From Arthrobacter sp. NicSoilB8 (GTDB lineage: Bacteria > Actinomycetota > Actinomycetes > Actinomycetales > Micrococcaceae), in assembly GCF_019977355.1 (NCBI RefSeq), contig NZ_AP024655.1, forward strand, positions 1,922,001 through 1,986,000: 64,000 nucleotides of DNA, given 5' to 3'. The position numbers and the translations under genes were made by a program. Under the pieces are notes generated by a model. That model was not told the origin of the DNA, searched no databases, and was given only the letters and a program-made list of their open reading frames with translations. The stretch's first letter is position 1; the number at the start of each line of letters is the position of its first letter. Of the stretch, positions 9,096 to 35,182 are shown one piece after another.

Positions 9096-9836
9096 ATGGG
9101 TGTCGGACATTGGGGTTGGGCGATGAGTTGGTTCCGTAGAGCTGGCCGTCGGCAGTGGTCCGCTGCGGGGCTGGTGGCTCTGCTCATGATTGGCGGAATC
9201 TTCCTACTTTGGCCTGCCGATAGACCCAGCGGGCAGGTCCCGCCGAAAACGTCCTCAACCGCGTTGGCAACCGCGGGGCCTTCTGGAACTTCCTCAGCTC
9301 CACGCGAGCCCTCGGCAGTTCCTGGTGAGGCGGACATGCCGGCGGTGGCAACGCGTGATGGTTTGCCACCTACTCGCGATTACCGGGCGCTCGCTGTAGC
9401 CGTAGCAAAGGGAATTTACACCTGGGACAGCCGTTCGTCGTCGTACTCGGATGTATATGCCAGGATCCGGTCATGGTGGGAGCTGCTGCCTGATGGATCC
9501 AATCCTTTATCTGTGTTGGTCCGAGAGTTTGAGGGGACTGGAGTCACGGCGGGTTCATTCGCGACCCTGGCAGATCAGTCTGCGCGCCGAAGCGGCACCG
9601 CTGAGTCACTGCGCTGTGATCTTGAGTTGGCCAAAGTCGAGGAGTATCCGGCCCCGTGGGAGGGCCTTCACGTATGCACAGTGACGGTGCAAGTCGTGGA
9701 CGAGTCCAGTAACGGCAGAAATTCCTATGCGGCGCCGGTCACCGTGATGGTCAACTGTCCTCCCGCCATCACCGCTCCAGCTGAGAGCTGCGCCATGGTT
9801 GGCTTTTACGCGACCGCAGAGAGAATCGTCTACTAG
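9096..9836 (+). CDS. Membrane-anchored conjugation protein, possible VirB8/TcpC-like
   Basis: A 246-residue protein. A basic N-terminus is followed by one transmembrane helix (AAGLVALLMIGGIFLLWP), a Pro/Ser/Thr-rich linker and an outside domain of about 150 residues with several Cys. Single-pass topology and its place just before a wall hydrolase and the channel genes fit the VirB8/TcpC class of scaffold proteins, but no diagnostic motif was seen. ATG 9096 and ATG 9123 are both possible starts. Its stop overlaps the GTG of the hydrolase gene (TAGTG), so the two are translationally coupled. Confidence 0.5.
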   Translation: MGVGHWGWAMSWFRRAGRRQWSAAGLVALLMIGGIFLLWPADRPSGQVPPKTSSTALATAGPSGTSSAPREPSAVPGEADMPAVATRDGLPPTRDYRALAVAVAKGIYTWDSRSSSYSDVYARIRSWWELLPDGSNPLSVLVREFEGTGVTAGSFATLADQSARRSGTAESLRCDLELAKVEEYPAPWEGLHVCTVTVQVVDESSNGRNSYAAPVTVMVNCPPAITAPAESCAMVGFYATAERIVY

Positions 9837-10957
9837 TGGCTGCTCTGGCAGCGGTCGCAGGCCTCATGCGGCTCCGGGCGTTGCTGAAGGTTGTGTCAGG
9901 AGCCGCTACCGCCGCCTTGCTTGTTGGCGCCATGGCATTTGCCGGAGGCGTGGCGGCGATAACTGGTATGGCGGCCCAATCCACAGTTGCTTGTACAGCA
10001 GCGGGCACCGAGATGACCACTGCGTCCAACGTGACTGGCGCTCGCTTGGAAGTTCGGAACGCTGGGCGCTTGCTCTACGAGCTGACGCCCCGGCAGGAGA
10101 GCGTTGCACGGACATACATTGCGGTCGGCAAGCAGCTTGGAATACCGCGCTCCGGGCAGATCATCGCTGTCATGATGGCGCTGCAGGAGTCAAGTTTGCG
10201 CATGCTCGCGAACCCCAGCGTGCCCGCTTCCCTGCACTTCGCGAATGACGGCGTTGGTCGTGACCATGACTCGATCGGTTCAGCCCAGCAGCGTCCGGCG
10301 GCGGGCTGGGGGACAGTTGAGCAGCTGATGGATGCCTCCTATAACGCGCGTGCCTTCTACGGCGGTCCGGCGGGACCGAATCGCGGCAGCCCTCGAGGAC
10401 TGCTGGACATCCCCGGGTGGCAGGCTATGGACAAAGGTCTGGCCGCCCAAGCCGTCCAAGTGTCTGCTTTTCCTGAACTGTATGCGCGGTGGGAGTCGGC
10501 GGCCACGGCAATCGTTGCTGCGCTTGAGGGTGGCATTACTCCCTCCTCCTGTGCAGAATCCTCGCCAGCGCCGCGGCCCGGGGGATCTCCACGCAACTTG
10601 AGTCAGCTACGGCAGGACATTCTGAAGTTCACGCAGGAAGGTTTGGGCGGAACATATGTGTGGGGAGGCACTGCCTTCAAAGCCTGGGATTGCTCTGGCT
10701 ATGTGCAGTGGATCTATCGTCAAGCCGGAATTGAGCTGCCGCGCGTAGAACAATGGCGCGTTGGTGTCCGGACCAAGGATCCCCAACCAGGAGACCTGGT
10801 GGTTCAAAATCCACAGGGACCCGACAACTGGGGCCACGTCGGCATCTACGCGGGGGATGGCATGATGTGGAGTGCTTTGAACCCGGCGGTAGGGACACTG
10901 TTACATCCCGTTAGCTGGAATCCTGGCGCGGTCTATTTTGACCTGTTGAGGCCCTGA
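9836..10957 (+). CDS. NlpC/P60 (C40) peptidoglycan endopeptidase of the conjugation apparatus
   Basis: A 373-residue protein starting at GTG 9836. An N-terminal hydrophobic segment (AATAALLVGAMAFAGGVAA) acts as signal or anchor. A middle region of about 200 residues resembles a lysozyme-like/VirB1-type module (ALQESSLRMLANP with a candidate Glu). The C-terminal NlpC/P60 domain has the catalytic Cys in AWDCSGYVQWIYRQAG and the His in NWGHVGIYAGDG. Bifunctional wall hydrolases of this type open peptidoglycan for Gram-positive transfer channels. A decayed partial copy of its 3' third lies at 31.9-32.2 kb. Confidence 0.85.
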   Translation: MAALAAVAGLMRLRALLKVVSGAATAALLVGAMAFAGGVAAITGMAAQSTVACTAAGTEMTTASNVTGARLEVRNAGRLLYELTPRQESVARTYIAVGKQLGIPRSGQIIAVMMALQESSLRMLANPSVPASLHFANDGVGRDHDSIGSAQQRPAAGWGTVEQLMDASYNARAFYGGPAGPNRGSPRGLLDIPGWQAMDKGLAAQAVQVSAFPELYARWESAATAIVAALEGGITPSSCAESSPAPRPGGSPRNLSQLRQDILKFTQEGLGGTYVWGGTAFKAWDCSGYVQWIYRQAGIELPRVEQWRVGVRTKDPQPGDLVVQNPQGPDNWGHVGIYAGDGMMWSALNPAVGTLLHPVSWNPGAVYFDLLRP

Positions 10958-11283
10958 GGGCGCACGTCGGCTTCGATGGTCAAACGCAGCACCCAGGCCA
11001 GAGGCGTGTTCAGCGAACAAGGAAGATCCGGGTTAGAAACCCAGCTACCTACTGTTACCGGTGAACTCTCTGGTATGGGCCTCGCGGCCCTGCCGCGCCT
11101 CATGCCGAAGAAAGAAGCTGGTCAGAGGCGACTGCCCTCAGATTGTGCGTATGAATTACGGGGAGAGGGTTCGCGATGTCGGTCCATAGGGCCCCAAGGC
11201 GAATGCACGTGACGAAGTTCCTAGCCTGTTGGCCAATGCCCGAGTTTGCCGCACCAGCAGCGACCATCCTCGTGCTTCTGGAT
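10684..11283 (+). repeat. Degenerate direct repeat, copy A (3' end of NlpC/P60 gene plus following small frame)
   Basis: This segment is recognisably related, with many substitutions and indels, to 31918-32584. Shared blocks include the catalytic-Cys region of the NlpC/P60 gene, its last ~60 codons, and a later block around GAATGCACGTG followed by CGAAGTTCCTAGC. The bases between the two blocks (about 10,960-11,150 here) are poorly conserved. Copy A keeps the hydrolase intact. The pair flanks the whole channel and relaxase module. Confidence 0.7.
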
Positions 11284-11370
11284 GACGAGGCCCCGTTCCT
11301 CGCCGGGCAAAATGATGTCTTCGTACCTGAGCATCAGTCCAGTGCAGCATCAGCCACATGCCGCAGATAG
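11176..11370 (+). CDS. Small hypothetical protein, conserved between the two repeat copies
   Basis: A 64-codon frame preceded by GGGAGAGGG about 7 bases before ATG 11176. Residues RMHVTKFLACW and AAPAATILVLL match RMHVAKFLAG and AAPAGAILVLL in the copy at 32478, in the same frame, with a purine-rich ribosome-site-like sequence upstream of both. Conservation in frame suggests it was translated, possibly as the start of a transfer-operon gene that the inverted cassette at 11.4-17.4 kb interrupted. Similarity stops after ILVLL in both copies, so the downstream residues here may be accidental. Confidence 0.35.
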   Translation: MSVHRAPRRMHVTKFLACWPMPEFAAPAATILVLLDDEAPFLAGQNDVFVPEHQSSAASATCRR

Positions 11371-11424
11371 GGGCGTCTTGGCGTATGTGGATTAGCCAGT
11401 TGGAGGCCGAAAACTCGAGCGTGT

Positions 11425-14400
11425 CTAGACGAGATTGCGGACTTTCTTCCCAGAGCCCCAACCGTCCTTGACGATCTCGACCTTCCCGGCTGTTGCTAGG
11501 CGTTCGAACAGTGTGTTGTTGGACGATCCCGGAGGCAGGGTGAACTCGGCACCCAGTCCACCCGTGAGCGTGCTGTACGGGGAGCCAAGAAGTGCCAGCA
11601 TCTCCATCAAGGCCTCCGGAGATAAGTCTCGGGCACGTACCAGCTGAGACAGTACCAAGTCTGGATCCTGCGTGACCCGAGCGATGCGCTGAACTTCCAC
11701 GAGCGGAAGCCAAATTTTCATTTCCCGCGCGTACGCACCTGCAGCTCGGAGTGCTTCGACATTGTCATCGACCACGTACAAGGCGAGGTCATTCACGACT
11801 TTATCGCGAACACCGTGGGGGACCTGCCTGCTCGCGAGCAGGTCGGCGACGAATCCGGATACCAGGCCGGGAGTCAGGATGGTGTCCATGTTTTTTGATA
11901 CGGCGAAGGCCTCCGATACCGACTTCCATCCAGCCTGAGCAAAGTGCGCGAACGTATCGGCTGCATCTGGGACCAGACCGGCTTCCAAGGCCAGCGCAAG
12001 AAGATCATCCCCAGCCGGCTCCAAAGCCGTTGCCTCGAGTGCAGAGGGTAGATTCAGGCCAACGGCGAGCCGGACTCGTGTCGCAGCCTGGAGCTGTGCG
12101 ATGGCGTTTAGGATCTGAATCGCAAGACTCGTCCTGGTGTCAGCTTCGGTTTCATCGACCCCATGTAGTTCGATCGGTGTCTTTCCGTCCGGTGCCAGGA
12201 AGCGGGCAAGGTGCTGATCGACCTGATTCGCCTGAACGTATGCCCAGATATTCTCGACTGTCGGGACCACGCGTGCTCCTTCGATAACTGCCGGCCACGT
12301 CTCCGAAGGCACTGCAGTGATTTCTTTGAGCGCCACGGCAGGGGAGCTTCCCGCGATGACCTTGCCGAGTTGCTCTTCCGTCCAGTCCTCATGTTGCTCG
12401 GTGACAATATCTCGGAGGGCAGCTTCCGTTCTCACGACATACTCGACCGGATCGTCGCTTCGAGCCGCCGCCAAGTACTCGTCCACGTTCTTCCTGCAGT
12501 ACTGCCAGACGTTGTCCTTCTTCCGTACCTCGTCGAGAGTGGGTGCGCTTTGGATGCCGAGTGCGAGTCGCAGATTCGACGTTGTGAGCTCATACATCTG
12601 CTCGGCGACAATCCTTTCGCGCAGTGGCTCGGCCAGATCGTTCAGGTCGGCGACGAGAACCTCGGCCGACTTAGCGAAGGAGAGGACGAGCTCTGTGCGC
12701 TCGGGAGACTGCGTCTCGTTGAAGGCCGTCAGATGTGGCTGCGCGGCCGTCAGCAACGTGACGGACGCTTCCCCGAGATTGTAGGCTTCAGCCTCGAGCC
12801 CGTTGAGAAGAGCGGCGTCAAGCAGGCTCATCCTGGTCTTATCGTCGGGGATCCCACTGTCGCTTGCGATGTACTCGATCAGTCCAGGCCACGGATGCGC
12901 TGCCAGCAACGCGACGAGCTGTTCGCGCGGCTCATCAACCGCGTTGAAGAACGCATCAAGGAACGTCTGCACGTCACGGCTGTGGTCGGCCACAATGAAA
13001 GCAACGACCTTCCTTGCCTCATTCGAGTTCTTACTCAAGAGATAGCTGACAACCTGGATGTTGAGCGCACTGACTGAACTCGTGAAGTCAGAGGGCACCT
13101 GCTCGAGCAGGTTGCTGATCGCGTTCGCAGTAGTGAACTCGAAGTCGAGGTACATCTGGTTCGGCTGGACACTGTGGTTGTAGAAGAATGCAACGTCCAC
13201 TCCGATGAAACTGCCGTAGAAGGTTGCAGAGTACTCGGCGTAGTTGCGGTTGATGAAACCTCGACGGACGAGATCCCGCGCCAGCTCCGACTTGAGCCCT
13301 TTTGCGACCTGCTCATTGAAGGTCGTTGCGCCTTTCGGAATGGGCTCATAGTTGACCAAATCGCTGAAGCCCGCGCCGCGGAGAAATGCGATGTCGCGGT
13401 CGCACCGTTCGACCTGTTTTGCCAGTTCGCTGGGATTCGGGTCTCTCCACCTAGCCGGGCCGATGGCCTCCGGGAAAAGAGGTGAAAGGAGCTCGTTGTT
13501 GAGGTGGACAGGGGGAGGACCATAGCCGCTCCTCTGCGGGGAAGCAATGCTTATCGAGCCCGTGTAGGCGACCTGCTTCCAGAATGGCACGCTTCGAAGG
13601 TCGTCGGAGCTGTAGCTTGTTTCGCCGACTGTAAAAGTGTTGTAGGGGTAGCCGGTGTTGTTTGGCAGCGTGTCTTTGATAGCGCAAAGCCGACTCCCCA
13701 AGAGCTGGGCGGTCTGCTCCTGCGTCCGCCGTAGACCCTCCGTGTGCATTACATCTCGTCGCTGCTTCTGCAAAAGTTCAATCGAAGCCCGGACAAGTTC
13801 TCGATGGTGCTGCTCAAGCGTGTCCAATGAGCTCGCGCGCTGTGAGATGGCCTCGAAATCCGCTAGATGGAAGTTCTTGTAGACCACCAGCGCGAACAGA
13901 TCGTCGGCCGTCATGCCGGGGGCACAGTTCTCCACCCACAGCAGATGCTCCGCGAACACGACGAACTCGTTGCAGATGTTGATCAGCAGCCGCATGTCGG
14001 TCGTGTGGCGCGCGACCAGGTCCAGCAGAGGGCGCTTCACGAGGTCCTCGGCGAGCCCGAGGCTTCTGAACGAGTCGACCAGGTGGTCGCGTGCATTGCG
14101 GTGCGAAATAAACGGAACCATAGGGATCACGATCTCGAAGAACTTGGTCCGGTTCGCTCGTTCTACGGCAGCAACAGCCAGATCAACGGAAGCCACGGCT
14201 GCTTCAGCAGGGCCGACGTTTCCGCTCGCCGAGGTCTCCGCCTTCTTTTCCCGGATCTCAGGATCTGTGCCTAGCTGCTCGAAGAGGCTGTCCTTGATGG
14301 CGTAGATGAACCGAAGGGGCTGGCTCCTACTTTTCCAGTGTGCTGATGAGTTGATGAGTGTGTTGAGCTCTCGGAGGGAGTCGAAGATTTGGGGGTCGTC

Positions 14401-15144
14401 GAAGCGATCGAGATCTTCGAAGATCACGTACTCCGGTTCGACGGCGTCGAAGAATGCGACGATCTCGTCCAGGAACCCGTCAAAGTAGGTGCTCGGTTTC
14501 TCGCCGAGAGTGATCGTGGTGCCTGCTGTCGTGACCTGAGAGACAATCCGATCACCGATGATCCACCGCGCGACCCAGACGACGACCACTACGAGAGCGA
14601 AGAACAGGGCGCCCAAGGCCATCTTCACAGACGGATCGGTGGTCCCGCCGAACCACGAGTCTCCTGGCCGGAAACCGATGAGCCAGAGTAGCGCCAGCAC
14701 GATGGTAGTCAGGCAAAGAGCCTGGAGGAATGCTAGCGACCGGGTCAGCGGCGCAGTCCGGGCGAACCTGGAACGACGGAGCTTCCCAGGCTTGGCCCTG
14801 TACACAAGCTGCTTGACGAGTTCCTTCTGGATCCTGTTTGTCAGGTCTTCTTGGTCTTCGTCCGGACCGAGTGTGTTGATGCTGATGCGAAGGGTTTTGT
14901 CTAAATGGTCGGATTCGAACTTGTCGAGCACGCTGGACTTTCCGGCACCGTAGCGGCCAGTGAGGGCGATGTTCCTGTTCTTTGGATCCGTTATCGCGTT
15001 TTCAAGATGCCGCACATAACCGCTGTGTTGTGTCTCCCCGTATGCGGGCGCGAGTGAACGCAAAGTGACGACGGGTCCTTTGCCCTGAGGTGGGTTGCCC
15101 CCAGCTCTACTCAACTCATCTCCAGTCTCAGTTCCTTCTGCCAC
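11425..15144 (-). CDS. YobI-like membrane P-loop NTPase (KAP/STAND-like), candidate defence protein
   Basis: A 1239-residue protein from GTG 15144. The NTPase domain has Walker A GRYGAGKS at residues 63-70 and Walker B YVIFEDLDRF at about 239-248. Two transmembrane helices (about 137-157 and 174-195) lie between Walker A and Walker B, the arrangement of YobI-like and KAP P-loop NTPases, which place the NTPase at the inner face of the membrane. The remaining ~950 residues are helical and repeat-like with no catalytic motif I recognise; they may be a sensor or oligomerisation region. The gene lies downstream of a HEPN-motif gene on the same strand, and both are inverted relative to the transfer genes. 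Related large NTPases occur in bacterial conflict systems; the role here is inferred. Confidence 0.7.
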   Translation of the reverse strand: MAEGTETGDELSRAGGNPPQGKGPVVTLRSLAPAYGETQHSGYVRHLENAITDPKNRNIALTGRYGAGKSSVLDKFESDHLDKTLRISINTLGPDEDQEDLTNRIQKELVKQLVYRAKPGKLRRSRFARTAPLTRSLAFLQALCLTTIVLALLWLIGFRPGDSWFGGTTDPSVKMALGALFFALVVVVVWVARWIIGDRIVSQVTTAGTTITLGEKPSTYFDGFLDEIVAFFDAVEPEYVIFEDLDRFDDPQIFDSLRELNTLINSSAHWKSRSQPLRFIYAIKDSLFEQLGTDPEIREKKAETSASGNVGPAEAAVASVDLAVAAVERANRTKFFEIVIPMVPFISHRNARDHLVDSFRSLGLAEDLVKRPLLDLVARHTTDMRLLINICNEFVVFAEHLLWVENCAPGMTADDLFALVVYKNFHLADFEAISQRASSLDTLEQHHRELVRASIELLQKQRRDVMHTEGLRRTQEQTAQLLGSRLCAIKDTLPNNTGYPYNTFTVGETSYSSDDLRSVPFWKQVAYTGSISIASPQRSGYGPPPVHLNNELLSPLFPEAIGPARWRDPNPSELAKQVERCDRDIAFLRGAGFSDLVNYEPIPKGATTFNEQVAKGLKSELARDLVRRGFINRNYAEYSATFYGSFIGVDVAFFYNHSVQPNQMYLDFEFTTANAISNLLEQVPSDFTSSVSALNIQVVSYLLSKNSNEARKVVAFIVADHSRDVQTFLDAFFNAVDEPREQLVALLAAHPWPGLIEYIASDSGIPDDKTRMSLLDAALLNGLEAEAYNLGEASVTLLTAAQPHLTAFNETQSPERTELVLSFAKSAEVLVADLNDLAEPLRERIVAEQMYELTTSNLRLALGIQSAPTLDEVRKKDNVWQYCRKNVDEYLAAARSDDPVEYVVRTEAALRDIVTEQHEDWTEEQLGKVIAGSSPAVALKEITAVPSETWPAVIEGARVVPTVENIWAYVQANQVDQHLARFLAPDGKTPIELHGVDETEADTRTSLAIQILNAIAQLQAATRVRLAVGLNLPSALEATALEPAGDDLLALALEAGLVPDAADTFAHFAQAGWKSVSEAFAVSKNMDTILTPGLVSGFVADLLASRQVPHGVRDKVVNDLALYVVDDNVEALRAAGAYAREMKIWLPLVEVQRIARVTQDPDLVLSQLVRARDLSPEALMEMLALLGSPYSTLTGGLGAEFTLPPGSSNNTLFERLATAGKVEIVKDGWGSGKKVRNLV

Positions 15145-15403
15145 AGTGTCAGTATGTCAGCCGCTTCCGACCGTAATGAAAGTGGCCTCAGACCCAGTGG
15201 AGGGTTCAGAAAGCCGGCTTCGCGGTTCAACTGGCCCCAGCGCTGCCTTACAGGCGGCAAAGATGGACCTCGTCGCTGCGAGCACGAACTGCAGGACCAC
15301 GAAACGGTGGAGGAAGGAGCTCGGAACCTCCGGTGGCTCTGCCCTGGGCCGACTCGGCGGCCCACAGGTCGGCTTCAGACTGACGGGCGTGTTGCCGACC
15401 GCA

Positions 15404-17410
15404 TTACTGTGATGCGGACGAATAGTTCGCGACCGACAGTTGAAAGTCGTCGCGGACCTTGAGTGCTAGCGACACCAGCATTCGGAGGAGCAGCACGTAC
15501 GACTGTCTGTGCGCTGTCACATCGCCAGGATCGGCGTTTGTACCATGCGCGTACCTGTTGCGAAGATCCGGGCCATCACTGAACTCGCTCTTGTTCAGGA
15601 TGAAGTTGAAGTAGCTCGCCTCAGCCGAGGTCAGGAGTGTCGAGCTGAATGCCAGCCATCCCTTATCCACGAGGGCGAGCGCAGCGGCCGATTCGTCCGT
15701 TCCGTAGTGGCCGAATGGGGCAGCTTCACGGTTGTGGATATCGCTGAGGACGAGAATCAGCGTCGGCAGAGGGAACTCAATGACGCCGGCGTCGACTGCA
15801 ACCAATCCCTGGGAGATTAACCAGTCGACGGGTTCTTTCTGGAAATGATGGAGCGCGTCGTAGGGCAGCTCATTCTCTGTGACCAGTTGGACGAAGCTCC
15901 TGGCTCGAAGCGTCTTGTTGACATAGGTGAGCCTCGACTGGTCGTTGAACAGGAGAAAAAGCGCCTGTTCGCAATCGCTGGTTGCCTCGCTGCGCAGGTA
16001 CTTGTGTTCGACGAGGCTGGGGATCTCACTCCATGGCCTCGGGGCGGAAGTCATGCGGAGGAGTTCGAGATCCAGTTCGCCCTCGTCGCAGTAGAGGGTG
16101 AATTGCCTGGCGATACTCTCCATCTCCGCGGAGATGTGACGGCACCGTTCGAGAAATGAGCTGGTCGGGCTGGAAACTGTGTAGTAGAAGCCGGCCGCGC
16201 CGAACTTGCTGGTGAGGTGCTCGCGGAAGAACCAGGCTACTGCGTCCTCGACCTCGATACCGTTCTGGCGGAGGAACTCTGCGTAGAAATGTGTTGCTTG
16301 CATCGTCAGCGCATCCAAGTGCTTGTACATTTTCCCTTTGGGGTATGAGTCCTTTCCCGCGAGGAAGAGCCTTTCGAATGTATCGATTTGCGCTTTGAAC
16401 GATGGCATAGTGAGCAGCCCTTGGCGATCCAGATAACCCACCATTGCGGCGAAGTTTGCGAGCACAGACTCCTGCTCGAGGGTGGCGGAGAGATATCGCC
16501 CACCGAATGAGCGGATGTGGGTCATCCCGCTCTCGGCATGGTCGATGTGGTCGAGCACGGGCGCGTGCTGTTCAGGATCGATCCTGATGCCATAGCGCCT
16601 TTTCAGCAGCGTGTTCTTATCGTCCGAGAAGAGCTCGTCCATGAGCACTTCGCAGCGCTTCTTCGCTTGAAGCCGGATCTTAGGGGTGATCCCGAAGCCG
16701 GGATTGTCGTTCGCATGTGCAATCGCTTCAACGTGATTAGGGTGCGGTGATGCGCTTTCGATGTATGCACTCAAGAGCTGTTGTACGTCCTCGCCGGTGA
16801 AGCTCGCGGGGAGGTGATATGAGGAATTGGAGTCCCTGATCAGTCGCATTTTGACTAGTAACTCACCGTGTCGAGCATCGGCAAGGAGTGCGTCGCGAAG
16901 GCGTCCGTCGTGTCCCTTCACGAACTGGGGGTTGGAAAGCATTGTCGCCAATGGCATGTGTGCTTTCACCAGTGCATCGAATAGTGCCTGACCGCCGACC
17001 TTTTCGGCGACTCCGTGCCTCTCGAGAAGCAGTATCAGGTCATCCCCGTATTCGTTCTCGAAGTCGCCCAGCAGGTGATCGAGGTCCGATGGGTCGAAAC
17101 AGGCGAAGAACGAGGCGATTTGCCTTCGTGACTCTCGCGCTGACGCCGCCAGATCCTCTCGTTCCTGTTCGCTAAGGGGGCGCGGAAAGATGCTGTGCGA
17201 TTCGAAGGCGAGGGCGTTGTGCAGCTCGAGCGCATCGTTCAACGAGTGGATCTTGCGGTCATGAGAATATTCTTGAATCAGCTTGACCGCTTGCTCGGCT
17301 AACCAACCGCTGGCAAGGTCCCGCGGGCCGTAGAACTTGACCCTCTCAGGTGACTCCGAATGTTCCATGGGCTTATGGTAACTGTGTCCTTCTGGGTTGC
17401 GTGTCGACAT
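15404..17410 (-). CDS. Large protein with C-terminal HEPN-type RNxxxH motif, partner of the YobI-like NTPase
   Basis: About 668 residues from ATG 17410 (ATG 17368 is also possible; no good ribosome site at either). Mostly alpha-helical by composition. Near the C-terminus, at about residue 617, is DLRNRYAHG, matching the R-phi-xxx-H catalytic motif of HEPN ribonucleases, followed by a hydrophobic helix (SYVLLLRMLVSLALKV) as in HEPN bundles. The layout resembles DUF4209-type proteins, large helical proteins ending in such a motif. It is encoded 259 bases upstream of the YobI-like gene on the same strand. RNase activity is inferred from one motif. If active, an abortive-infection role with the NTPase as sensor or gate is plausible. 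Confidence 0.6.
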   Translation of the reverse strand: MSTRNPEGHSYHKPMEHSESPERVKFYGPRDLASGWLAEQAVKLIQEYSHDRKIHSLNDALELHNALAFESHSIFPRPLSEQEREDLAASARESRRQIASFFACFDPSDLDHLLGDFENEYGDDLILLLERHGVAEKVGGQALFDALVKAHMPLATMLSNPQFVKGHDGRLRDALLADARHGELLVKMRLIRDSNSSYHLPASFTGEDVQQLLSAYIESASPHPNHVEAIAHANDNPGFGITPKIRLQAKKRCEVLMDELFSDDKNTLLKRRYGIRIDPEQHAPVLDHIDHAESGMTHIRSFGGRYLSATLEQESVLANFAAMVGYLDRQGLLTMPSFKAQIDTFERLFLAGKDSYPKGKMYKHLDALTMQATHFYAEFLRQNGIEVEDAVAWFFREHLTSKFGAAGFYYTVSSPTSSFLERCRHISAEMESIARQFTLYCDEGELDLELLRMTSAPRPWSEIPSLVEHKYLRSEATSDCEQALFLLFNDQSRLTYVNKTLRARSFVQLVTENELPYDALHHFQKEPVDWLISQGLVAVDAGVIEFPLPTLILVLSDIHNREAAPFGHYGTDESAAALALVDKGWLAFSSTLLTSAEASYFNFILNKSEFSDGPDLRNRYAHGTNADPGDVTAHRQSYVLLLRMLVSLALKVRDDFQLSVANYSSASQ

Positions 17411-17666
17411 CAAGCGGTGCCAGGAGTTCCATCAGACCCACAACATGGCTCACCGACGAGCGCAATCAGATCGCTTGTGAAAGGGTCGGGTCTGCTTATC
17501 ATGCACGCACCCCCCTTTTGAACGATATCTGGAGTCATTGCACCTCTGGTGCTCTTGCCGTTTGTAAGGGGTGATCGCTGGTGGAGTCATGTCGCTTCGT
17601 CCCTCAACTTCCATGAACCCGTGAGCTCATCTGCTCACTCCATGGAACACGACGGACGGAGCACCC

Positions 17667-17954
17667 ATGTTTTTTGCAGCGGTGGACCCGGGGATCACCC
17701 CGAACGCGAGCTTTCCCTTCCTGGAATCACTCAAACAGATCGGCGGCGGAATCCTCGTCGGCGCTTTCATCATCATTGCCATCGTGGCCATCATCGGTGC
17801 CGCAATGCTGCTGGCCGGCAAACTTAGCCAGTCGTCACGCCTTGCCTCCGGCGGGGGCGTGATCCTCCTTTGGACCGGACCAGTTGCTGCAATTCTCGGC
17901 GGCATCAACGGCTACATCCTCTGGTCGCAGACCGCCTTCCCTCTCGGGTTCTAG
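17667..17954 (+). CDS. Small two-helix membrane protein of the conjugation operon (DUF6112/VirB2-like)
   Basis: A 95-residue protein with two long hydrophobic helices (GGGILVGAFIIIAIVAIIGA and ASGGGVILLWTGPVAAILGG) joined by a short polar loop. Its size, topology and position immediately before a TrbL/VirB6-like gene fit the small pilin-like VirB2/TrbC or DUF6112 proteins of actinobacterial transfer systems. The 250 bases upstream, back to the inverted HEPN gene, must hold the promoter for the downstream operon, but I see no convincing -35/-10 pair. GGACGGAG lies before the ATG. Confidence 0.6.
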   Translation: MFFAAVDPGITPNASFPFLESLKQIGGGILVGAFIIIAIVAIIGAAMLLAGKLSQSSRLASGGGVILLWTGPVAAILGGINGYILWSQTAFPLGF

Positions 17955-17957
17955 CTC

Positions 17958-19325
17958 ATGCCCGCTGAGTGCGACCTCAATGGATGGTGGCCGCCCGGCT
18001 GCGGTTTGGTCTCACAGGCCAACGACAACGCCCTGGGCGCAGTCACGGCCCTCTTCGCCAACATCCTCCAAAACATGGCGTCCTGGCTTTGGGCCTTCAT
18101 CACCGGCGCCTTCACCGTGTCGGACATCGACGACTCCCAATGGCTCTCCATCCGAGGGCTCACGAGCTGGTGGGTGGTTGTCATGATGACGCCGCTCGTC
18201 GTCGTGATGATCCTGCAGGTACTGTCCGGCCTGGTTAGCCAGCAGCCGAGACGGATAGGACGTGCGATGCTCGGCGGAGCTGCTGCCATCCCGCTGGTGG
18301 GTGCGGCTGTGTATCTTGTCCGGCAACTGACGCGGGCCAGCGACTTAGCCTCGGCGGCCCTGCTCGAATCGATTGGCTCCGATCCCTACCTGGTGTTCAT
18401 GAGGCTGTTCGGCTTCGAGCGGGCACCAGAGGGAGCAGGGCGGGAATGGAACCTCGTCTCGCTGGCCCCAGGGAACACCGGAGGCGCTCCTGGTGCCGTC
18501 GTTGTGACTGTGTTGGCGGTCGGCGTCGTCTGGATCCTGGCTTTCATCCTGATGTGTTCGATGATCTTCCGCTCCTTTGCCCTCGTCGTGCTGGCCGCCG
18601 CCGCCCCCGTTGCGCTCATGCTGCTTCCGTGGGACAAGACAAAGTCCTGGGCACGACGATGGTGTGAGGTCGTCATTGCCCTGGTCCTCGCTAAGCCGCT
18701 GGCCGCCACTGTCTTGGCAGTCGCGGTGAAGCTCTTTACCGAGTCCAAGTCCTTCGCCGGATTGGCAGCTGGGACAGTCGGCATGGTCCTAGCCTGCGGT
18801 GCACCATTGATGGCCCTGCGCCTGGTGAGCTTCGCTGGCGGGGAACTCGCGGCAGCGGCCCAGACGGCCGGAGGCGGCCATGTCCTGTCCAGGAGCAGCA
18901 ACGTGGCGGCCCGCCAGATCAGCAGGCAGACAGGTGGCCGCCTTACACTCGCGAGCCTCGTGAGTCGGTCCGCAATGACTCGGCCGATTAACTCAAGCCG
19001 TAGCGCTTTCCCTACACAAGTGCTGGCATCCAGTGTCCGTTCCGGGGCGTCTTCAGTCGGCAGCGACGGGAGCCGACTGGCTCTGGGCACCGGAGCCTCT
19101 CGTGGCGCTCCAGGAGCCCCGCACCCGTCGGAGTCTCCGGGGTTTATGCGCGGTGATCCCCGTGAGCGGTACGGCGCCGCTGCAACATCTCCTCCGCAGG
19201 CACCGGACGCGGCTGAACGGCGAGCGCAGCCAAACGCGAGCGGGCCCAGCCCTACAAGAGCCCAACCTCCAAAACCCCAGCCACCAAGAATCGACCCTCC
19301 GAAGGGAGGTACTCCTCATGTCTGA
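17958..19325 (+). CDS. TrbL/VirB6-like polytopic channel protein
   Basis: A 455-residue protein. Five to seven transmembrane helices lie in the first ~300 residues (for example SWWVVVMMTPLVVVMILQVL, VVTVLAVGVVWILAFILMC and FALVVLAAAAPVALMLLPW), followed by a Ser/Pro/Arg-rich, probably disordered cytoplasmic tail. The ordering of helices, a basic KSWARRW loop and a further Ala-rich helical pair are typical of TrbL/VirB6 inner-membrane pore proteins of type IV secretion. It follows the small membrane protein after 3 bases and overlaps the SCO6880 gene by 8. Confidence 0.75.
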   Translation: MPAECDLNGWWPPGCGLVSQANDNALGAVTALFANILQNMASWLWAFITGAFTVSDIDDSQWLSIRGLTSWWVVVMMTPLVVVMILQVLSGLVSQQPRRIGRAMLGGAAAIPLVGAAVYLVRQLTRASDLASAALLESIGSDPYLVFMRLFGFERAPEGAGREWNLVSLAPGNTGGAPGAVVVTVLAVGVVWILAFILMCSMIFRSFALVVLAAAAPVALMLLPWDKTKSWARRWCEVVIALVLAKPLAATVLAVAVKLFTESKSFAGLAAGTVGMVLACGAPLMALRLVSFAGGELAAAAQTAGGGHVLSRSSNVAARQISRQTGGRLTLASLVSRSAMTRPINSSRSAFPTQVLASSVRSGASSVGSDGSRLALGTGASRGAPGAPHPSESPGFMRGDPRERYGAAATSPPQAPDAAERRAQPNASGPSPTRAQPPKPQPPRIDPPKGGTPHV

Positions 19326-20817
19326 AGATTCGCGCGTCCTTGAAGCCGTCAAGTTCCCAAGATATGAGCGCCGGGGGTTCTTCCTCGGGCTCAAGTGGTA
19401 CCAGTTGCTCATCATCGCCGGGGGAGCAACAGTCGCCATCGTGGCATCCGCCAGTGGTGGGCCGGCAGGCTTGTTCGTCTCCGGGCCTATGTGGCTTGGG
19501 CTCATTCTGCTTGGGCTCCTCCAATACTCACGCATCCCTTATCCGGTATGGGCGAAACAGATCGTATTGTTCTTTTACCGGGCGGCGACAGGCCAGATCC
19601 GTTTTCTCGCAAAGCCCGCAACGCCACAACTTGCTGGGCGGCTTGCCCTCCCGGGTGGTCTAGGCAATCTCGAGATCCGAACAACGGCCAGCGGTGAATG
19701 TTTTATCGTCGACCGCCACGGTAAGGAGGCGATCGCCGTACTGCGGTGCAGTACGCGGTCGTTTGCGCTCCTGGACGCGGATGACAAGGCGTGGGCGGTT
19801 CAGGCCTGGTCACGCGTTCAGGCGGGCATGGCCCAACGTCAGGGCGTGGCCCGGATCGCGATCCAGGATTACACCGTGCCTTATCCGTCGTCGGCTCTTT
19901 GGGATTACTACAGAGACAACGCCGCGCGGCCCGAAGCTGGTGGCGGGAAGCCCACCTGGGGACACCGTGCATACGAGGACTTGCTGGGTGCTGCCGGGGC
20001 GACTATGAGCCATGAGCTTCTCGTGGCGGTGGTCCTGGACGCCAGCAAGGCTCGACGGCGGATCAAGGAGTCAGGCGGGGGACTGACAGGCCTCGAACGC
20101 GTGTTGCGGCTTGAAGTCGAGGCCATGCAAACGTCGCTGGGAACTCATGGCGTAAAGGTGGAGGAATGGGCCGGCGAAGCGGGATTGCTGGGCGTCATTC
20201 GTGGTGCATTCGATCCTGCGGCCTTGCCGTCCGCGAAAGTGCCGGTGGCGGCAGCCCCGCCGTCGGATGAGTCGGCAGGCAAGGAAACGCCTAACCCCGA
20301 CCGGCATCGCCCAATGGCCGTGGAGGAACACTGGACGTATCTACGGACCGACACCGGGTTCCACCAGACTTTCTGGATCGCTGAATGGCCCCGGCAGAAG
20401 GTCTTCCCGGGTTTCCTGCATCCCCTGATCTATGTCGGCGAGTTCCGCCACACTTTCACCGAAGTCATCCGGGCTGTGCCCACGGCTGAAGCCCTGCGTG
20501 ACATCCGCTCTGCGCAGGAGGCGCACGAGACCCGCCGCCGCATCAACGCCCGCTTCGACAGGCCACTGACTCGTGAGCAAAGAGCCGAGGAAGAAGAGGT
20601 GCTCCAAAGGGAGGAAGAGATCGTCGCCGGCCATGGTGACGTGCGTCCAGCCGCCTACATTACTGTCACAGCGACCTCCCTTGAGGATTTGGCCCGGTAC
20701 CGCCAGGAACTTGAATCCGCCGCTGCCGGCGCATTCGTTGAACTGAGGCTTTTATACGGACAGCAGTGGGCCGCGTTTGTCGCCGGTGGGCTGCCGCTTG
20801 GAAGGGGACTGCGTTGA
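19318..20817 (+). CDS. SCO6880-family protein (PrgI-like helices fused to a VirB4 N-terminal-like domain)
   Basis: About 499 residues from ATG 19318, which has the strong ribosome site AAGGGAGGT. The first ~90 residues hold two transmembrane helices (YQLLIIAGGATVAIVASASG and GPMWLGLILLGLLQY), the PrgI/TcpF pattern. The rest is a large soluble domain without P-loop that resembles the N-terminal part of VirB4/TraC-type proteins (segments such as TFTEVIRAVPTAEALRDI). The ATPase domain is encoded separately by the next gene. This is the standard SCO6880 arrangement in actinobacterial conjugation loci. Overlap TTGA with the next gene implies coupled translation. Confidence 0.75.
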   Translation: MSEDSRVLEAVKFPRYERRGFFLGLKWYQLLIIAGGATVAIVASASGGPAGLFVSGPMWLGLILLGLLQYSRIPYPVWAKQIVLFFYRAATGQIRFLAKPATPQLAGRLALPGGLGNLEIRTTASGECFIVDRHGKEAIAVLRCSTRSFALLDADDKAWAVQAWSRVQAGMAQRQGVARIAIQDYTVPYPSSALWDYYRDNAARPEAGGGKPTWGHRAYEDLLGAAGATMSHELLVAVVLDASKARRRIKESGGGLTGLERVLRLEVEAMQTSLGTHGVKVEEWAGEAGLLGVIRGAFDPAALPSAKVPVAAAPPSDESAGKETPNPDRHRPMAVEEHWTYLRTDTGFHQTFWIAEWPRQKVFPGFLHPLIYVGEFRHTFTEVIRAVPTAEALRDIRSAQEAHETRRRINARFDRPLTREQRAEEEEVLQREEEIVAGHGDVRPAAYITVTATSLEDLARYRQELESAAAGAFVELRLLYGQQWAAFVAGGLPLGRGLR

Positions 20818-22259
20818 AGCAGACAGCGAAGAGCCTTGAGTACGTCCCGTCGGGGAAGAACCGGGGCGAGCGGAAAGCGCGACGGCGGTCCGCACCCTAC
20901 GGGGCAACATCGGCGAGCGCATTGGCAGAGGACAAGCAGCAGGATTTCCACGGCTTCCGCTTCACAGGTGACTGGGGGAGCAAAGAACAAAGCTCCCTGC
21001 GTGGTCCCCACCGGCTGCGTCCCGCGCCGCACCGTGCCTCGACAATGACATTTGCCGCCGCTTATCCGTTCCTTACGGAGTCGGGGCTGGGACACGAGGG
21101 GACTTACATCGGCACAGATGTGTTCGGGTCCGGGGCCTTCTCCTACGACCCGTGGATCCTTTACGACAAGGGGATCATCAGCGGCCCGTCGATTGTGGTG
21201 ATTGGGACGGTGGGCACCGGCAAGTCAATGTGCGGCAAGTCGCTGGTGACGCGGTCAATCACGTTGGGGCGGAAGGCCGCTGTCGCGTCTGATCCCAAAG
21301 GTGAGTGGGTCGCCGTTGCCAAGGCTGTTGGGGGCAAAGTGATCTCCGTTGGCCCCGGCCGCCCTGCAAGAGTCAATCCTCTCGACGCCGGGCCCCGACC
21401 GAGCGCTCTCACGGAGGCTCAATGGCAGGCGGTGGTGAGGCAACGCCGTCGCTATTTGCTGGTGGCCTTGGTCTCCCTCATGCGGCAGGGCACACCGCTC
21501 CGCCCTGTGGAGCACACGGCCCTGGACATCGCCCTAATGGAAACAATGGCCGAGAATTCGAACCCCACATTGCCTATGGTGTTGGACCACTTGCTGAGAC
21601 CTTCGAAGGAGATGACTGCCTTGGTCGGTGTCGAGGGAGGAACCGCGGTCAGCCACTCGTTGAGGCGCACCGTATCCGGCGATCTCGAAGGTATGTTCGA
21701 TGCGCCGTCCACTGTGGCATTCGATGCGGACGCGCCCATGATGGTGATGGATACGTCAGCCCTGATCGGGGCGTCGGAGCAGGCCCTTTCGCTGGCTGCG
21801 GCCTGTGGCGCCACATGGTTGGAAGCTGCCATTACAAATCCCGACGGCGGGAAGCGGTTGGTGGTCTACGACGAGGGGTGGCGGATGCTCGCTGATCCGT
21901 ACATGTTGGCGAAGATGAGCGAGCAGTGGCGGCTAGCCAGAACCTACGGGATCGCGAACCTGCTGATTATGCACAAGGTGGCGGACCTCAACGAGATCGG
22001 GGACAGCACCAGTGGGCACCGGCAGAAAGCCCTTGGGCTGCTGACCGAGGCTGACACCAGGATTATTTACCGGCAGAAACATGACGCGATGCGTCTGACC
22101 AAGGAGGCGCTCGGCCTCACCGAGGCCGAATGCGAGCACGTCGAGAACCTCCCCAAGGGGGTCGGGCTCTGGAAGGTGGGAAACCGCTCCTTCATCGTTG
22201 CCAACCGGGTGACTACTGACGAACTGGCCGTTTTCTCAACTGACGACAGGATGCTGTGA
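20814..22259 (+). CDS. VirB4/TraC-like conjugation ATPase
   Basis: About 481 residues from TTG 20814, preceded by GGAAGGGG at 6 bases; GTG 20766 is a weaker alternative. Walker A is GTVGTGKS at about residues 131-138 and Walker B is RLVVYDEGWRM, followed by a sensor-like segment (GIANLLIMHKVADLNEIGD) and an arginine-rich C-terminal region. These features define the HerA/FtsK-superfamily VirB4 motor that powers assembly and transfer of the secretion channel. The usual VirB4 N-terminal domain is missing and is supplied by the preceding SCO6880 gene. Overlap GTGA couples it to the coupling-protein gene. Confidence 0.85.
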   Translation: MKQTAKSLEYVPSGKNRGERKARRRSAPYGATSASALAEDKQQDFHGFRFTGDWGSKEQSSLRGPHRLRPAPHRASTMTFAAAYPFLTESGLGHEGTYIGTDVFGSGAFSYDPWILYDKGIISGPSIVVIGTVGTGKSMCGKSLVTRSITLGRKAAVASDPKGEWVAVAKAVGGKVISVGPGRPARVNPLDAGPRPSALTEAQWQAVVRQRRRYLLVALVSLMRQGTPLRPVEHTALDIALMETMAENSNPTLPMVLDHLLRPSKEMTALVGVEGGTAVSHSLRRTVSGDLEGMFDAPSTVAFDADAPMMVMDTSALIGASEQALSLAAACGATWLEAAITNPDGGKRLVVYDEGWRMLADPYMLAKMSEQWRLARTYGIANLLIMHKVADLNEIGDSTSGHRQKALGLLTEADTRIIYRQKHDAMRLTKEALGLTEAECEHVENLPKGVGLWKVGNRSFIVANRVTTDELAVFSTDDRML

Positions 22260-24079
22260 GAGCCCGAGGCAGTTCGCGGGCTGCGAGTGACAATCCTCTG
22301 GTCACCGCTTGCCTTGTGGCGGCTGCAGCCTACGTGTGTGTCTGTGCACTGGTTCACACGGCAGCGCACGCAGTTGGCACTATGCGCTGCGGCAGCATGC
22401 CGCCGTCGCCCTTTAACCCAGCGGCCGCCGTCGGACTTCTCACCAACAAGATGGAGTGGATACTTGTCCGCCGACCCGACTGTGAAGTTGGCACGGACAG
22501 CGTCTGGTGGGTTCTAGCTCCGGTGATACTTCTGGGTGGTGCGCTCGCCGTCGGGGTATTGGTCGCCTGGCGGCGATGGAAGCAATCAGGCGGGTGGCTG
22601 CGCCAGGACATCCTCAATCGCGACGGCGTTGCCCGCCGGGCCGAGGTTCTTCACGATTTCGGGGCCAGGGCTGTTCGCAAGAGAGGGAGGTTCACCCGCC
22701 CAGGAGTCGTCAACCCGTCCGTGCAGGATCTCTCGTGGACGCTGGGCCGCTCCCGCGGCGTCACGGTCCACGTCTCCACCGAGGAGTCATTGGTGATCCA
22801 AGGCGCACCGAGATCAGGTAAGGGTCTGTACGTGGTCATCAACGCTATTCTCGATGCGCCCGGTGCAGTGGTCACGACTTCTACGCGCGCTGACAACCTG
22901 GTGGTCACGTTGAAGGCCCGGGCGTCCGGCGGACGACCCGTGACGGTCTTTGATCCCCAGGGCATGTCCGGAATTCCCTCGTCGCTTCGCTGGTCGCCTG
23001 TCCGCGGGTGCGAGGACCCCGACATGGCTACCCGTCGTGGGTTGGTTATCACAGCGGACACTGAGATGAAGGGCGAGAACGCAGCCTGGCAGAAGCGCTC
23101 GCTGATAGTCCTTCAGTGTCTGCTTCACGCTGCCGCCCTGTGCGGTGAGGGAGTCACGGCATTTCGACGTTGGTCTTCCAGCCCGGTATTGGCAAGGGAA
23201 GCGCTCGAGGTGCTGGGCCGGCCCGGGGCAGCGCTCGGATGGCAGGCGGACTTGATGGGGATATTGGAAGACGACCCGCGAAACACGTCCAACTCGTGGA
23301 TTGGGGTCTCGGCGGCGGTGGCACCGCTGTCATCGCCAAAAGTACTGGCCGCCCTGAACCCGCAGGACGAGTCCGAAGAGTTCGATCCGAAGGCCTTCAT
23401 ACGGGACCGGGGCACTCTTTATCTCATCGGCACCCGAGCGGGGGCAGCTGCTGCTGGACCGTACCTGTCCGCACTGATCGATGACATCGACAATGCAGCG
23501 AGGGAGATGGCGTTCGTATCACCGGGCGGTCGGCTGGAGCCACCTCTTTCCTTGATCCTCGACGAGATCGCCAACCTGGCTCCATGGCCCGGACTGCCGG
23601 TGGCACTCTCTGACGGCGGCGGCATTGGCATCTCGACCCTCGTGGTTCTGCAATCCCTATCTCAGGCCCGTTCAGGCTGGTCCATCGACGAGGCGGCGAC
23701 GATCTGGGACTCGGCCATTATCAAAGTGATATTTGGCGGGGGATCCGACGAACGGGACCTTCGCTCACTTGCCGGGTTGCTTGGGGAGCGGAGCCTTACG
23801 CTCACTACACGGTCATGGTCGTCGCAGGGCCGGCAGGACGGTGAGCAGATACGCGAGAGTCCGGTCATTGCTCTGGACGAGATTCGACGCCTCCCGGTTG
23901 GAACGGCCCTTATGCTCGGCCGGCGAACCCGCCCCATTCTGTTGGATCTTCTTGAGTGGCACAAGCGGAAGGACGCAGGGGAGTTGCGCCGCCTGAAAGC
24001 GGAGATGGAGCGCGAATTGGCGGACGGGCACAGGCAACGCCAGCAGAAGAATGAGGAGGTGCCGGATGCGCAGCCATGA
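22256..24079 (+). CDS. TraG/VirD4-type IV coupling protein
   Basis: A 607-residue protein starting at GTG 22256. Two N-terminal transmembrane helices (about residues 14-38 and 84-104) precede the motor domain with Walker A QGAPRSGKG at about 182-190 and Walker B LSLILDEIANL. The TraG/TraD signature continues with GIGISTLVVLQSLSQARSGW and an AIIKVIFGGGSDERDL segment. Coupling proteins bring the relaxase-DNA complex to the channel and pump it out. It is placed just downstream of the VirB4-like ATPase. The C-terminal tail is charged and probably coiled. Confidence 0.9.
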   Translation: MRARGSSRAASDNPLVTACLVAAAAYVCVCALVHTAAHAVGTMRCGSMPPSPFNPAAAVGLLTNKMEWILVRRPDCEVGTDSVWWVLAPVILLGGALAVGVLVAWRRWKQSGGWLRQDILNRDGVARRAEVLHDFGARAVRKRGRFTRPGVVNPSVQDLSWTLGRSRGVTVHVSTEESLVIQGAPRSGKGLYVVINAILDAPGAVVTTSTRADNLVVTLKARASGGRPVTVFDPQGMSGIPSSLRWSPVRGCEDPDMATRRGLVITADTEMKGENAAWQKRSLIVLQCLLHAAALCGEGVTAFRRWSSSPVLAREALEVLGRPGAALGWQADLMGILEDDPRNTSNSWIGVSAAVAPLSSPKVLAALNPQDESEEFDPKAFIRDRGTLYLIGTRAGAAAAGPYLSALIDDIDNAAREMAFVSPGGRLEPPLSLILDEIANLAPWPGLPVALSDGGGIGISTLVVLQSLSQARSGWSIDEAATIWDSAIIKVIFGGGSDERDLRSLAGLLGERSLTLTTRSWSSQGRQDGEQIRESPVIALDEIRRLPVGTALMLGRRTRPILLDLLEWHKRKDAGELRRLKAEMERELADGHRQRQQKNEEVPDAQP

Positions 24080-27576: not shown

Positions 27577-30500
27577 TTAGAGCTGCCAACCAGCACTTGT
27601 AAGGGCGACCTTCTGGGAAGTGGCCAAATTCGCGGCCCCCGTCGCTAGCTCAGCTGCCGTTGGGCGCTGACGAGCGTCGTCCATTGCTACTTGCAGTCTT
27701 TCCCGTTGCCCCTGCTGAACCCACTCGTGCTCGGCTGGAGTCGGACCCAGCGGCAGGGGAGAGTCCGAGATTCCCCACCTGTCCCTGAAGAGGGCTACGT
27801 CACGAATCAGTTGGCCTGACGCGCCGCTGCCAAGGGAGGCGGTCAGCGCGCGTTTCCAGTCGGGATCCTCTGTCAGGGCAGACATGCTTACGGCGTCGGT
27901 CCTCTGCCGGATCCGTTGGCGGACCTGATCCACCATCTCCGCTAAGTCAGGACGAGAGGTAGTAAGCTCCTCGACCAAAGGGTCCGCCGTCGCCGTCGGC
28001 ACCCCTTTAATGAACCGGCGCAAACACATGCTGAGCAGAGCCGAGGGATCGTGCGCACCTGTGGCGTTTCGGAGAGTCTCCTCCAACACACGTTCGGCTC
28101 CCTGAAGGCTGACGGCGGCCGCCTTCCGCCACGCCGCAACGGCCGCGCCCCACGAAGGTGACTGTTCGAGTTCGAGTGATGGGCCGCCGTCGTGCTTGTT
28201 CAAGCATTGCTTGAGACCTTGGGCAGCTGCTATTTGCGCCAAATAGTCATACTCGGCGTAGAGGCGCTCGAGGCTGTCTGCCTTTTTCCGTTCCGCGTCG
28301 CGTACTTCATGGGCGGTCCGCTCAGCACCTTCCGCAGCGAGTACCTCGCCTAAGATGCTTCGCCACGACGGCTGCAGGGTGGGATCAATGGCGTGGTGCT
28401 CGGAGTCATCACCTTCGCTGACGTAGGCAAAGTTGCCGGACCGGCCTCGGGTCATGCTGACGTAGAGGAGCTCGCGGGTGAGGCGGCCCTGTCTAACCAC
28501 AGTGTGACCGGTGTCCACGGTGACGCCCTGGGTGCGGTGTGCGGTGGTTGCATAGCCCAGCTCAACGCACGACTCGAGGTAGGTCCGGGGGAGTATGATC
28601 CTCGCTCCTGTTTGCCGCCGAACCGCTTGAAGTGAGCCGTCCCGCTTACAGACACTTTCGACGTCGAACAGTGTTCCATTCCGGACGAAGTCACCGTTGC
28701 TGTCGATGAGCCTGCGGTCGTTTCCGCGGGCGATGATGGTGTCGCCAGAACCGGCGTGTAGGCCATCGTTGAGCAGAACGTTCCGTTCGGGATCCACCTC
28801 GCCCTTGGCGACGAGGTCGGCTTGGGCGCGTTCGTTGAGCATGCCGACGGTGTCATTGTCGGCCGCGATAAGGATGGATGACTTGCCGGCCCGCATATCG
28901 GCCTGCCACGCCAGGTACGCCTGGTCGACCATGTCCAAGTAGGTGCCGTGACTTATCCGTCGATGCTTTTCATAGTCCAGGATCGCTGAGTAGTCTCCCC
29001 TCCGGAGCTTGAGGGATGATGCGCCCTCCCACTTTTCGTGGAATCTCCAGATGCTGCTGAGCCGGGTGGTCTTTTCTTGCCGGTCCAGCCAACCGAGGAC
29101 GCCGCCGGCGTCGATCGCGTCCAGCTGGCCTGGGTCACCCACCAGGAGGATCTTCGCGTGGGCCTCGTGTGCCTGCTGGACGAGGGCGGCGAGCTGGAAC
29201 GTGGAAACCATGGAAGCTTCGTCGATGATGACGAGCTGGTCCGGGTGGAAGCACCATCGCTGCTGGGTTGCAGCGAGCCGTGCAGCTTCCTGCGCGAATG
29301 CCATGCTCCTGCGGTCGCCGGCATGAGACTTTGCCAGACGGGTCTGGACGTCGAAGAAGCGCTCTGCCCTGGAAGTTGCCGCATGGCCCTCCGACTCGTG
29401 CAGCCACTTGGCGACGTTTTCTGTGGCCATAGCGAGTTCGCGGCCCAGTACGTCCGCACTTGCCGCCGCCGGGGCAAGCCCGATCACGCTACCGCCGCCG
29501 TGTTCCGCTTCCCATATCGCCTTCACCGCGCCTAGGGTCGTTGTCTTTCCCGCGCCTGCTGGGCCCACGATCGCGTCGAGGCGGTTGCCGCTAAGGAGGA
29601 CCGTGGCGACGGCGGCGCGCTGATCGGAGTGCAGTTCCGGCTTCGCGGGCCGTCGGGCCCGGTCAAGCGAATCCATGATGACATCCGCGCGCACGACCGG
29701 GCCGCCGTCGTCGTTTCTTGCCGCCATGATGGCGTCCTCGCAGACGAGCGTTGAGGTATCTGTGTAGAGGCGCGATCCGTGGAAGTCGAAGACGCTGCCA
29801 TGCCTGTTGTGGAGGTCGGGCGCAGCGTCTGGTGGGGCGGCGTAGCGGTACTCGTTGAGCGCTACGGACTGGTGTTCGGCGGCTGTGGCGACGGCATCCA
29901 TTAGTGCATTCCGGTCGGAAGCGGAGCGGCAACGGATCTGTGCGCAGACCCTCTCCGCTTCGGCGAGGAGGTTCCAGCGGTTCCAGGTTGAGCGTTTGCC
30001 ACTGACACGTTCACGGGCAAGGGAGGCGACACTGTCGATCCAATCGGAGGTGAAGTCCGTGAACGAAAAGGGGGAGTCCCAAGAGCGGTTAATTGTGGCG
30101 GCTAGGACGTCGCCCGGGTGGAAACCTTTGGCGACCGCACGTTCCCGCCAATGCCCCGAGAGTTCATGAAGAGGTGTGGGTAGGTCGGCCTTTGGGATAC
30201 GGGTATCCAGAGTGGCTTGCTGACGAAGCTTGATTATCGTTACTGCGGTGGGAGGATGACCGTGTTCCGTGACCCATTTCGCCACGAGGCGGTCCGTTTC
30301 CAGATTGATGCGACGTGACCGGTTCGAAAATTCGCGGACGAGTGCTTCGTCTATGCCGGTGAGCTGCTGGCTGGGATTCTGGGTGCTGGTGACAGGGTTA
30401 CGGATATCTGTGTCGCTTCCGAGGTGCCGATGGAGGGCGTCAAATAGGAGTCCGTTGTAGTGTTCGCTGGCGGCGACGGCGGCCTTGTACAGGGTGCGGG

Positions 30501-35147: not shown

Positions 35148-35182
35148 ATCACTCCTTTGTGATGAGGTGTTTTGCGGACGGC

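Follow-up and report, generated by a model that had tools for sequence, protein, structure and literature searches.

A Tmn-like NTPase gene and a HEPN-motif PDC-S56 gene in a variable cargo slot of a putative Arthrobacter conjugative element

Introduction

Of the two genes considered here, the first is closest to Tmn, described in PMC11846954 as an NTPase of the KAP family that has two unusual transmembrane domains and acts by a mechanism as yet unexplored. The second recalls the HEPN superfamily, which, according to PMC3710099, has the motif Rx4-6H, read as that of an RNase, and includes DUF4209-type proteins; DS-11, as presented in PMC13092281, is a validated one-protein CBS + HEPN system in which mutations of the HEPN catalytic residues abolish defence. 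The ATPases of Avs, BREX (BrxC) and RADAR (RdrA) are also listed among the closest known systems, and PADLOC holds a defence candidate designated PDC-S56 (models PDLC05039 and PDLC05038), although a full-text literature search found no paper naming 'PDC-S56'.

We analyzed a 64,000-nucleotide stretch of the Arthrobacter sp. NicSoilB8 chromosome (contig NZ_AP024655.1), hereafter the window, in which a first-pass annotation had noted an NTPase gene and a HEPN-motif gene and had proposed that they form a single defence system. The analysis instead favors two genes of already catalogued defence kinds, whose setting is instructive, over a new system.

Results

Table 1. Features of the locus and of the surrounding element; positions are those of the window unless prefixed C1.
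Feature	Position	Strand	Basis or remark
Tyrosine integrase gene	C1:1919279-1919821		2.2-2.7 kb left of window, beside tRNA-Leu(CAA)
NlpC/P60 protein, left slot border	9836..10957	+	Pfam NLPC_P60, 2.5e-17
Cargo insert	10958..17584	.	Bounded by ends of DNA homology to L095
Tmn-like / YobI-ATPase family membrane NTPase	11425..15144	-	ORF list; 1239 aa, GTG start
Gap between NTPase and PDC-S56 genes	15145..15403	.	ORF list; 259 bp
PDC-S56 family protein, C-terminal HEPN-type RNxxxH motif	15404..17413	-	ORF list; 669 aa, TTG start
95-aa gene, right slot border	17667..17954	+	87.5-97.9% identical in 20/20 relatives examined
Transfer genes: TrbL/VirB6, 594-aa protein, VirB4-like ATPase, TraG/D coupling protein	17958..24079	+	Pfam TrbL, TraG-D_C
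TrbL/VirB6	17958-19325	+	Pfam TrbL
TraG/D coupling protein	22256-24079	+	Pfam TraG-D_C
TrwC-type relaxase-helicase, taken as part of same element	27577..31425	-	Pfam TrwC, 4.8e-71
Candidate right attachment site	39016..39037	+	19/22 bases match 3' end of tRNA-Leu(CAA)

The first-pass description of the NTPase, with a Walker A motif, two transmembrane helices and then a Walker B motif, was borne out by the open reading frame, the motifs and the hydropathy profile. Walker A (GRYGAGKS) occupies residues 63-70 and Walker B (VIFEDLDRFDDP) begins at residue 240; only two stretches, residues 133-161 and 170-202, exceeded the hydropathy threshold, both lying between these motifs. Two long helices in that region are also present in the AF2 model (pLDDT 77.5, pTM 0.43), which has AAA+-type folds among its structural matches. 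The overall architecture is a P-loop domain with two inserted transmembrane helices, a long helix and a C-terminal helical repeat. The protein matched the Pfam family YobI-ATPase (PF20693; 1.3e-102, 344 bits against a cut-off of 27), and the KAP_NTPase model scored 13.3 bits, below its 20-bit cut-off.

The PADLOC Tmn model (PDLC02220) matched the NTPase in three stretches, the best at residues 179-289 (2e-42, 143 bits). In common with Tmn, the protein has a YobI-type P-loop NTPase domain that contains two transmembrane helices, is of similar size (1239 aa vs a 1273-position profile) and is located on a mobile element; it differs in having only about 30% identity to the E. coli forms over residues 42-440. 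A profile comparison with one E. coli open reading frame, which lacks the P-loop part, spanned 692 columns at 24% identity with 99.6% probability and was weak in the C-terminal half. Because an E. coli plasmid relative scored 1837 bits against the model on which the window protein scored 143, we regard the latter as a distant, Tmn-like member; NTPases in four other genomes of the family gave similarly low scores (133-163 bits). The neighbors at 14 NTPase loci included no general family, the largest groups, named by eye, being relaxase-like open reading frames in three loci and restriction-modification-like sets in three.

The second protein matched PDLC05039 over nearly its whole length (8.6e-193, 640 bits; residues 18-661 onto profile positions 3-642 of 649). 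It shares with PDC-S56 this full-length match and its occurrence as a stand-alone gene, and no feature among those compared separates the two, the model itself being only a defence candidate. The ATG at codon 16 (17368), which would give a protein of 654 aa, is suggested as the true start rather than the TTG, because 40 of the 45 homologues are 646-665 aa long. The first-pass annotation was right about the spacing of the gene, its strand and its RNxxxH motif, but not in stating that the protein ends in that motif: RNRYAH spans residues 618-623, and 46 further residues extend to the C-terminus.

Conservation of the motif exceeds what chance would give. R618, N619, Y621 and H623 are kept in all 43 alignment rows with letters at those positions (one of the 44 rows ends early), and RNxxxH was found, at identities as low as 22%, in 38 of the 43 relative open reading frames listed from PDC-S56 loci; those that lack it (L026, L027_3, L030, L038 and L042) are apparently cut, split or odd reading frames. 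Such strong conservation argues for a catalytic site. E598, kept in 44/44 rows, would correspond to the additional conserved acidic residue of HEPN proteins, so that the protein resembles HEPN superfamily RNases both in an Rx4-6H motif with N after R and in a conserved acidic residue upstream. It differs from HEPN and DUF4209 proteins in that none of 11 PDC-S56 members scanned matched a Pfam HEPN family, and in a profile comparison five DUF4209 proteins could be aligned with it over little more than the motif (probability 1.5%). A HEPN fold would place the motif at the end of its third helix; in the predicted structure, the motif lies in a loop, modeled at a pLDDT under 50, between helices at 596-606 and 632-668, and structure comparison found no matching solved structure.

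Relatives of PDC-S56 are sporadic, present in 11/295 genomes of the family and 4/394 of the class; 45 were listed in a large protein set, and 44 loci were recovered from the species-genome collection. Neighbor families common to at least three of these 44 loci comprised one recombinase-like family (five loci) and three others (three loci each). The shared families look by eye like recombinases, relaxases and ordinary enzymes, and no candidate partner recurred beside PDC-S56 in the 44 loci; by this neighborhood test PDC-S56 appears to be a single-gene system. Among 89 proteins chosen near 40 of the loci, counted at E 1e-15 or better, there were single matches to BrxL of BREX, to a cyclase, TIR/SAVED and E1-E2 proteins of the CBASS kind, to LmuA and LmuB of Lamassu, to IetS and to a type IIG restriction-modification enzyme. 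Two of the 44 loci (L010 and L023) lie near TraG-like or NlpC-like genes, and the other 42 lack any transfer gene tested.

The first-pass proposal was that the NTPase and the HEPN protein constitute one two-gene system, the membrane NTPase sensing infection and then releasing or activating the RNase. The two genes do lie on the same strand of the same insert, 259 bp apart, yet in our judgment the genes of a coupled operon would usually lie closer together; a scan poorly suited to actinobacteria found no match to a sigma-70-like promoter or a terminator within the gap. The adjacency count came to 0/44 for NTPase relatives at PDC-S56 loci (up to 9 kb on each side, some contigs being shorter) and 0/12 for PDC-S56 relatives at NTPase loci (about 19-20 kb each), close to the lack of co-occurrence that the first-pass annotation had itself named as contrary to its proposal. 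Among the 44 PDC-S56 loci without the NTPase in the flanking DNA examined are those of a relative of 87% identity and a fragment of 82%.

Co-occurrence within genomes pointed the same way. The NTPase family is present in 16/295 genomes of the family and 8/394 of the class, but both genes occur together in only one of the 295, the window's own (0/294 others), and in two of the 394, the window's genome and one other (G312; 1/393). In the latter the genes are unlinked: the NTPase is internal to a 200-kb contig, and two other contigs each carry a HEPN piece at one end. Chance alone predicts about 0.05 further class genomes with both (3 x 7 / 393). One near-identical metagenome relative probably does carry both genes (P0001, 97%; P0047, 92%), a single contig being suggested by their same source and by the length, 11,734, of both contigs. 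We think it unlikely that the genes constitute one two-gene system. As homologues of each almost never co-occur with the other, the NTPase and PDC-S56 are best read, from their sequence distribution, as separate genes brought together in this element lineage.

Around the two genes, genes expected of an integrative conjugative element are present, namely an integrase, a TrwC relaxase, a TraG/D coupling protein and the type IV secretion gene TrbL, and on these grounds the host structure would be classed as such an element in an actinobacterial chromosome. The tRNA-Leu(CAA) gene is situated 3.3-3.4 kb to the left of the window. No exact repeat of at least 17 bases was found for the attachment sites; if the site at 39016, whose match is inexact, holds, the element would tentatively measure about 42 kb. 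In the transfer operon, the designation VirB4-like is our own reading and not a profile match, and the 594-aa protein had no Pfam match.

Both cargo genes run opposite to the transfer genes and separate NlpC/P60 from the channel genes, just as had been noted at first. Through the VirB4-like ATPase (at least 77% identity, near full length), we located related elements at 35 places outside the window's genome and compared 20 of them. Gene order was the same in 20/20: NlpC/P60, a gap, the 95-aa gene, TrbL, the 594-aa protein, the VirB4-like ATPase and TraG. The gap ranged from 119 bp to 11.4 kb, being 119-222 bp in four elements, 783-1814 bp in four (L095, L101, L107 and L108) and 3.6-11.4 kb in 12, and 13 of the 20 contain open reading frames of at least 110 aa within it. 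The closest related element, L095 (77-98% protein identity over the shared transfer genes), defines the bounds of the insert, since DNA homology to it stops at 10957 and resumes at 17585. The interval from NlpC/P60 to the 95-aa gene is thus a slot whose cargo varies among related conjugative elements, and it is this setting that is new.

The slot comparison bears on two further readings. That the genes have a housekeeping or regulatory role in the transfer apparatus and merely happen to be inverted would fit their position within the transfer operon, but no relative of either was found in the slot of the 20 otherwise collinear elements, and the four with a near-empty slot contradict this reading, which we consider highly improbable. 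A second reading is that the cargo serves the element, by keeping out rival plasmids or conjugative elements or through an addiction-like role, with membrane or RNA damage upon loss of the element or entry of another. Location inside the transfer operon favors it, as do the two PDC-S56 loci near transfer-type genes and the many NTPase relatives on plasmids (477/628 matching records are typed conjugative, a figure that is not independent since 458/628 are Escherichia). However, most PDC-S56 loci lack such genes, and the window's cargo is evidently dispensable for element maintenance, because four of 20 slots are near-empty and 13 hold other open reading frames; we give this reading a small chance of being correct.

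The contents of the slot in other elements are of a defence type in several cases. Profile scans of 10 chosen slot open reading frames gave matches that include a Hachiman helicase, whose HamA partner was confirmed, a type IIG restriction-methyltransferase, an OLD/GajA-like (OLD/Gabija-like) protein, a NACHT protein (1846 aa), an nSTAND-like protein (1113 aa, just below cut-off), a DUF4365-HEAT protein (934 aa) and a PDC-M43B-like ATPase; three of the 10 had no profile match. By eye, three other slot cargos look metabolic. In a further genome of the genus (L126), a Tmn-like NTPase of 30% identity lies directly behind an NlpC remnant, and it therefore seems that the same position received a Tmn-like gene independently in that lineage.

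Discussion

We think it likely that the insert carries two defence genes against phages (or plasmids), each independent and self-sufficient, that came to lie side by side in the cargo slot of the conjugative element. What this explanation takes from observation is the sequence families, the motifs and their conservation, the slot, the separate inheritance and the defence neighborhoods. The first-pass view that the genes are defence-type cargo in a mobile element fared well: both proteins matched PADLOC models, the slot is variable and holds known defence cargo elsewhere, and defence genes lie near some PDC-S56 relatives. Its statement that no named system is known remains true of the pair, but each gene alone is of a catalogued kind. 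Against this explanation stand the modest Tmn match, the subthreshold KAP_NTPase score, the failure to recover a HEPN fold, the probable joint occurrence in the metagenome relative and the single unlinked co-occurrence, which is above chance expectation.

If the genes act independently, each protein could contain both a sensor and an effector. An infection cue may be sensed by the C-terminal helical repeat of the NTPase and would be passed on as the P-loop domain binds or hydrolyzes ATP, with the two transmembrane helices within this domain producing the effect at the membrane. In PDC-S56, the large N-terminal helical part may be the sensor, and RNA cleavage at the C-terminal RNxxxH site would halt the infected cell. 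Both proteins would thereby stop phage growth at the cell's cost, by abortive infection. We consider it quite unlikely that in this lineage the two genes, once independent, have come to function as one unit, in which infection would trigger membrane damage together with RNA cleavage and which would be delivered through an exchange slot that swaps whole defence systems. Under that reading the slot cargo would perhaps be exchanged by recombination between the conserved flanking transfer genes, as no integrase or transposase gene was seen within the window's own insert; transposase-like open reading frames were noted by eye in some other slot cargos.

Treating the genes as separate replaces a supposed new two-gene system with two kinds of defence gene, Tmn-like and PDC-S56, that are catalogued but whose mechanisms are still unexplored. 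Slot size and content differ among most of the 20 elements examined, and this actinobacterial element family thus offers, between NlpC/P60 and the 95-aa gene, a place to find more defence genes, for which the large, unassigned NACHT, nSTAND-like and DUF4365-HEAT proteins are already candidates.

Apparent carriage of the two gene families by conjugative elements

Open reading frames of one cluster, judged by eye to resemble TrwC-type relaxases, lie near four loci of the PDC-S56 family (L010, L018, L019 and L042) and near three of the Tmn-like NTPase family (L117, L124 and L126); therefore, both families seem to be carried by conjugative elements more widely. In L095-L114, 20 related elements, the slot between the NlpC/P60 gene and the 95-aa gene is a cargo hot spot of one family of conjugative elements, and its large unassigned cargo proteins include one with a NACHT domain and another combining DUF4365 with HEAT repeats. 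At L126, in another genome of the same genus, a Tmn-like NTPase follows an NlpC remnant. Because NlpC and the gene preceding it were the only transfer genes detected in that stretch among those tested, L126 looks like a decayed element that acquired its NTPase independently.

Other neighbors and states of NTPase relatives were observed. On the Rhodococcus plasmid pRJH2, the gene next after the NTPase relative is annotated DUF5677 and is a possible candidate partner, for which a PADLOC scan returned no match. By eye, open reading frames resembling type I restriction-modification genes adjoin the relatives at L115, L120 and L122. The Tmn genes of two E. coli plasmids are each annotated in two pieces and are apparently broken copies. 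A further RNxxxHG protein is encoded elsewhere in the host chromosome.

Coordinates of slot cargo, NTPase relatives and other features
Feature	Position	Size	Remarks
Slot cargo protein	L109:7010-12550	1846 aa	NACHT
Slot cargo protein	L106:8919-12260	1113 aa	
Slot cargo protein	L114:8562-11366	934 aa	DUF4365 + HEAT
NlpC remnant and Tmn-like NTPase	L126:8124-13028		NTPase after remnant
NTPase relative and DUF5677 gene, pRJH2	L128:5902-10727		DUF5677 gene after NTPase relative
Tmn, E. coli plasmid	L127:3875-7699		Two pieces
Tmn, E. coli plasmid	L130:4405-8198		Two pieces
RNxxxHG protein, host	L138 (C1:1138257-1138529)		DUF4209
ORF	Window 5459-6718		Left part of element; alpha/beta-hydrolase-like GWSLGGS motif, by eye
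ORF	Window 33777-36896	1039 aa	To right of relaxase
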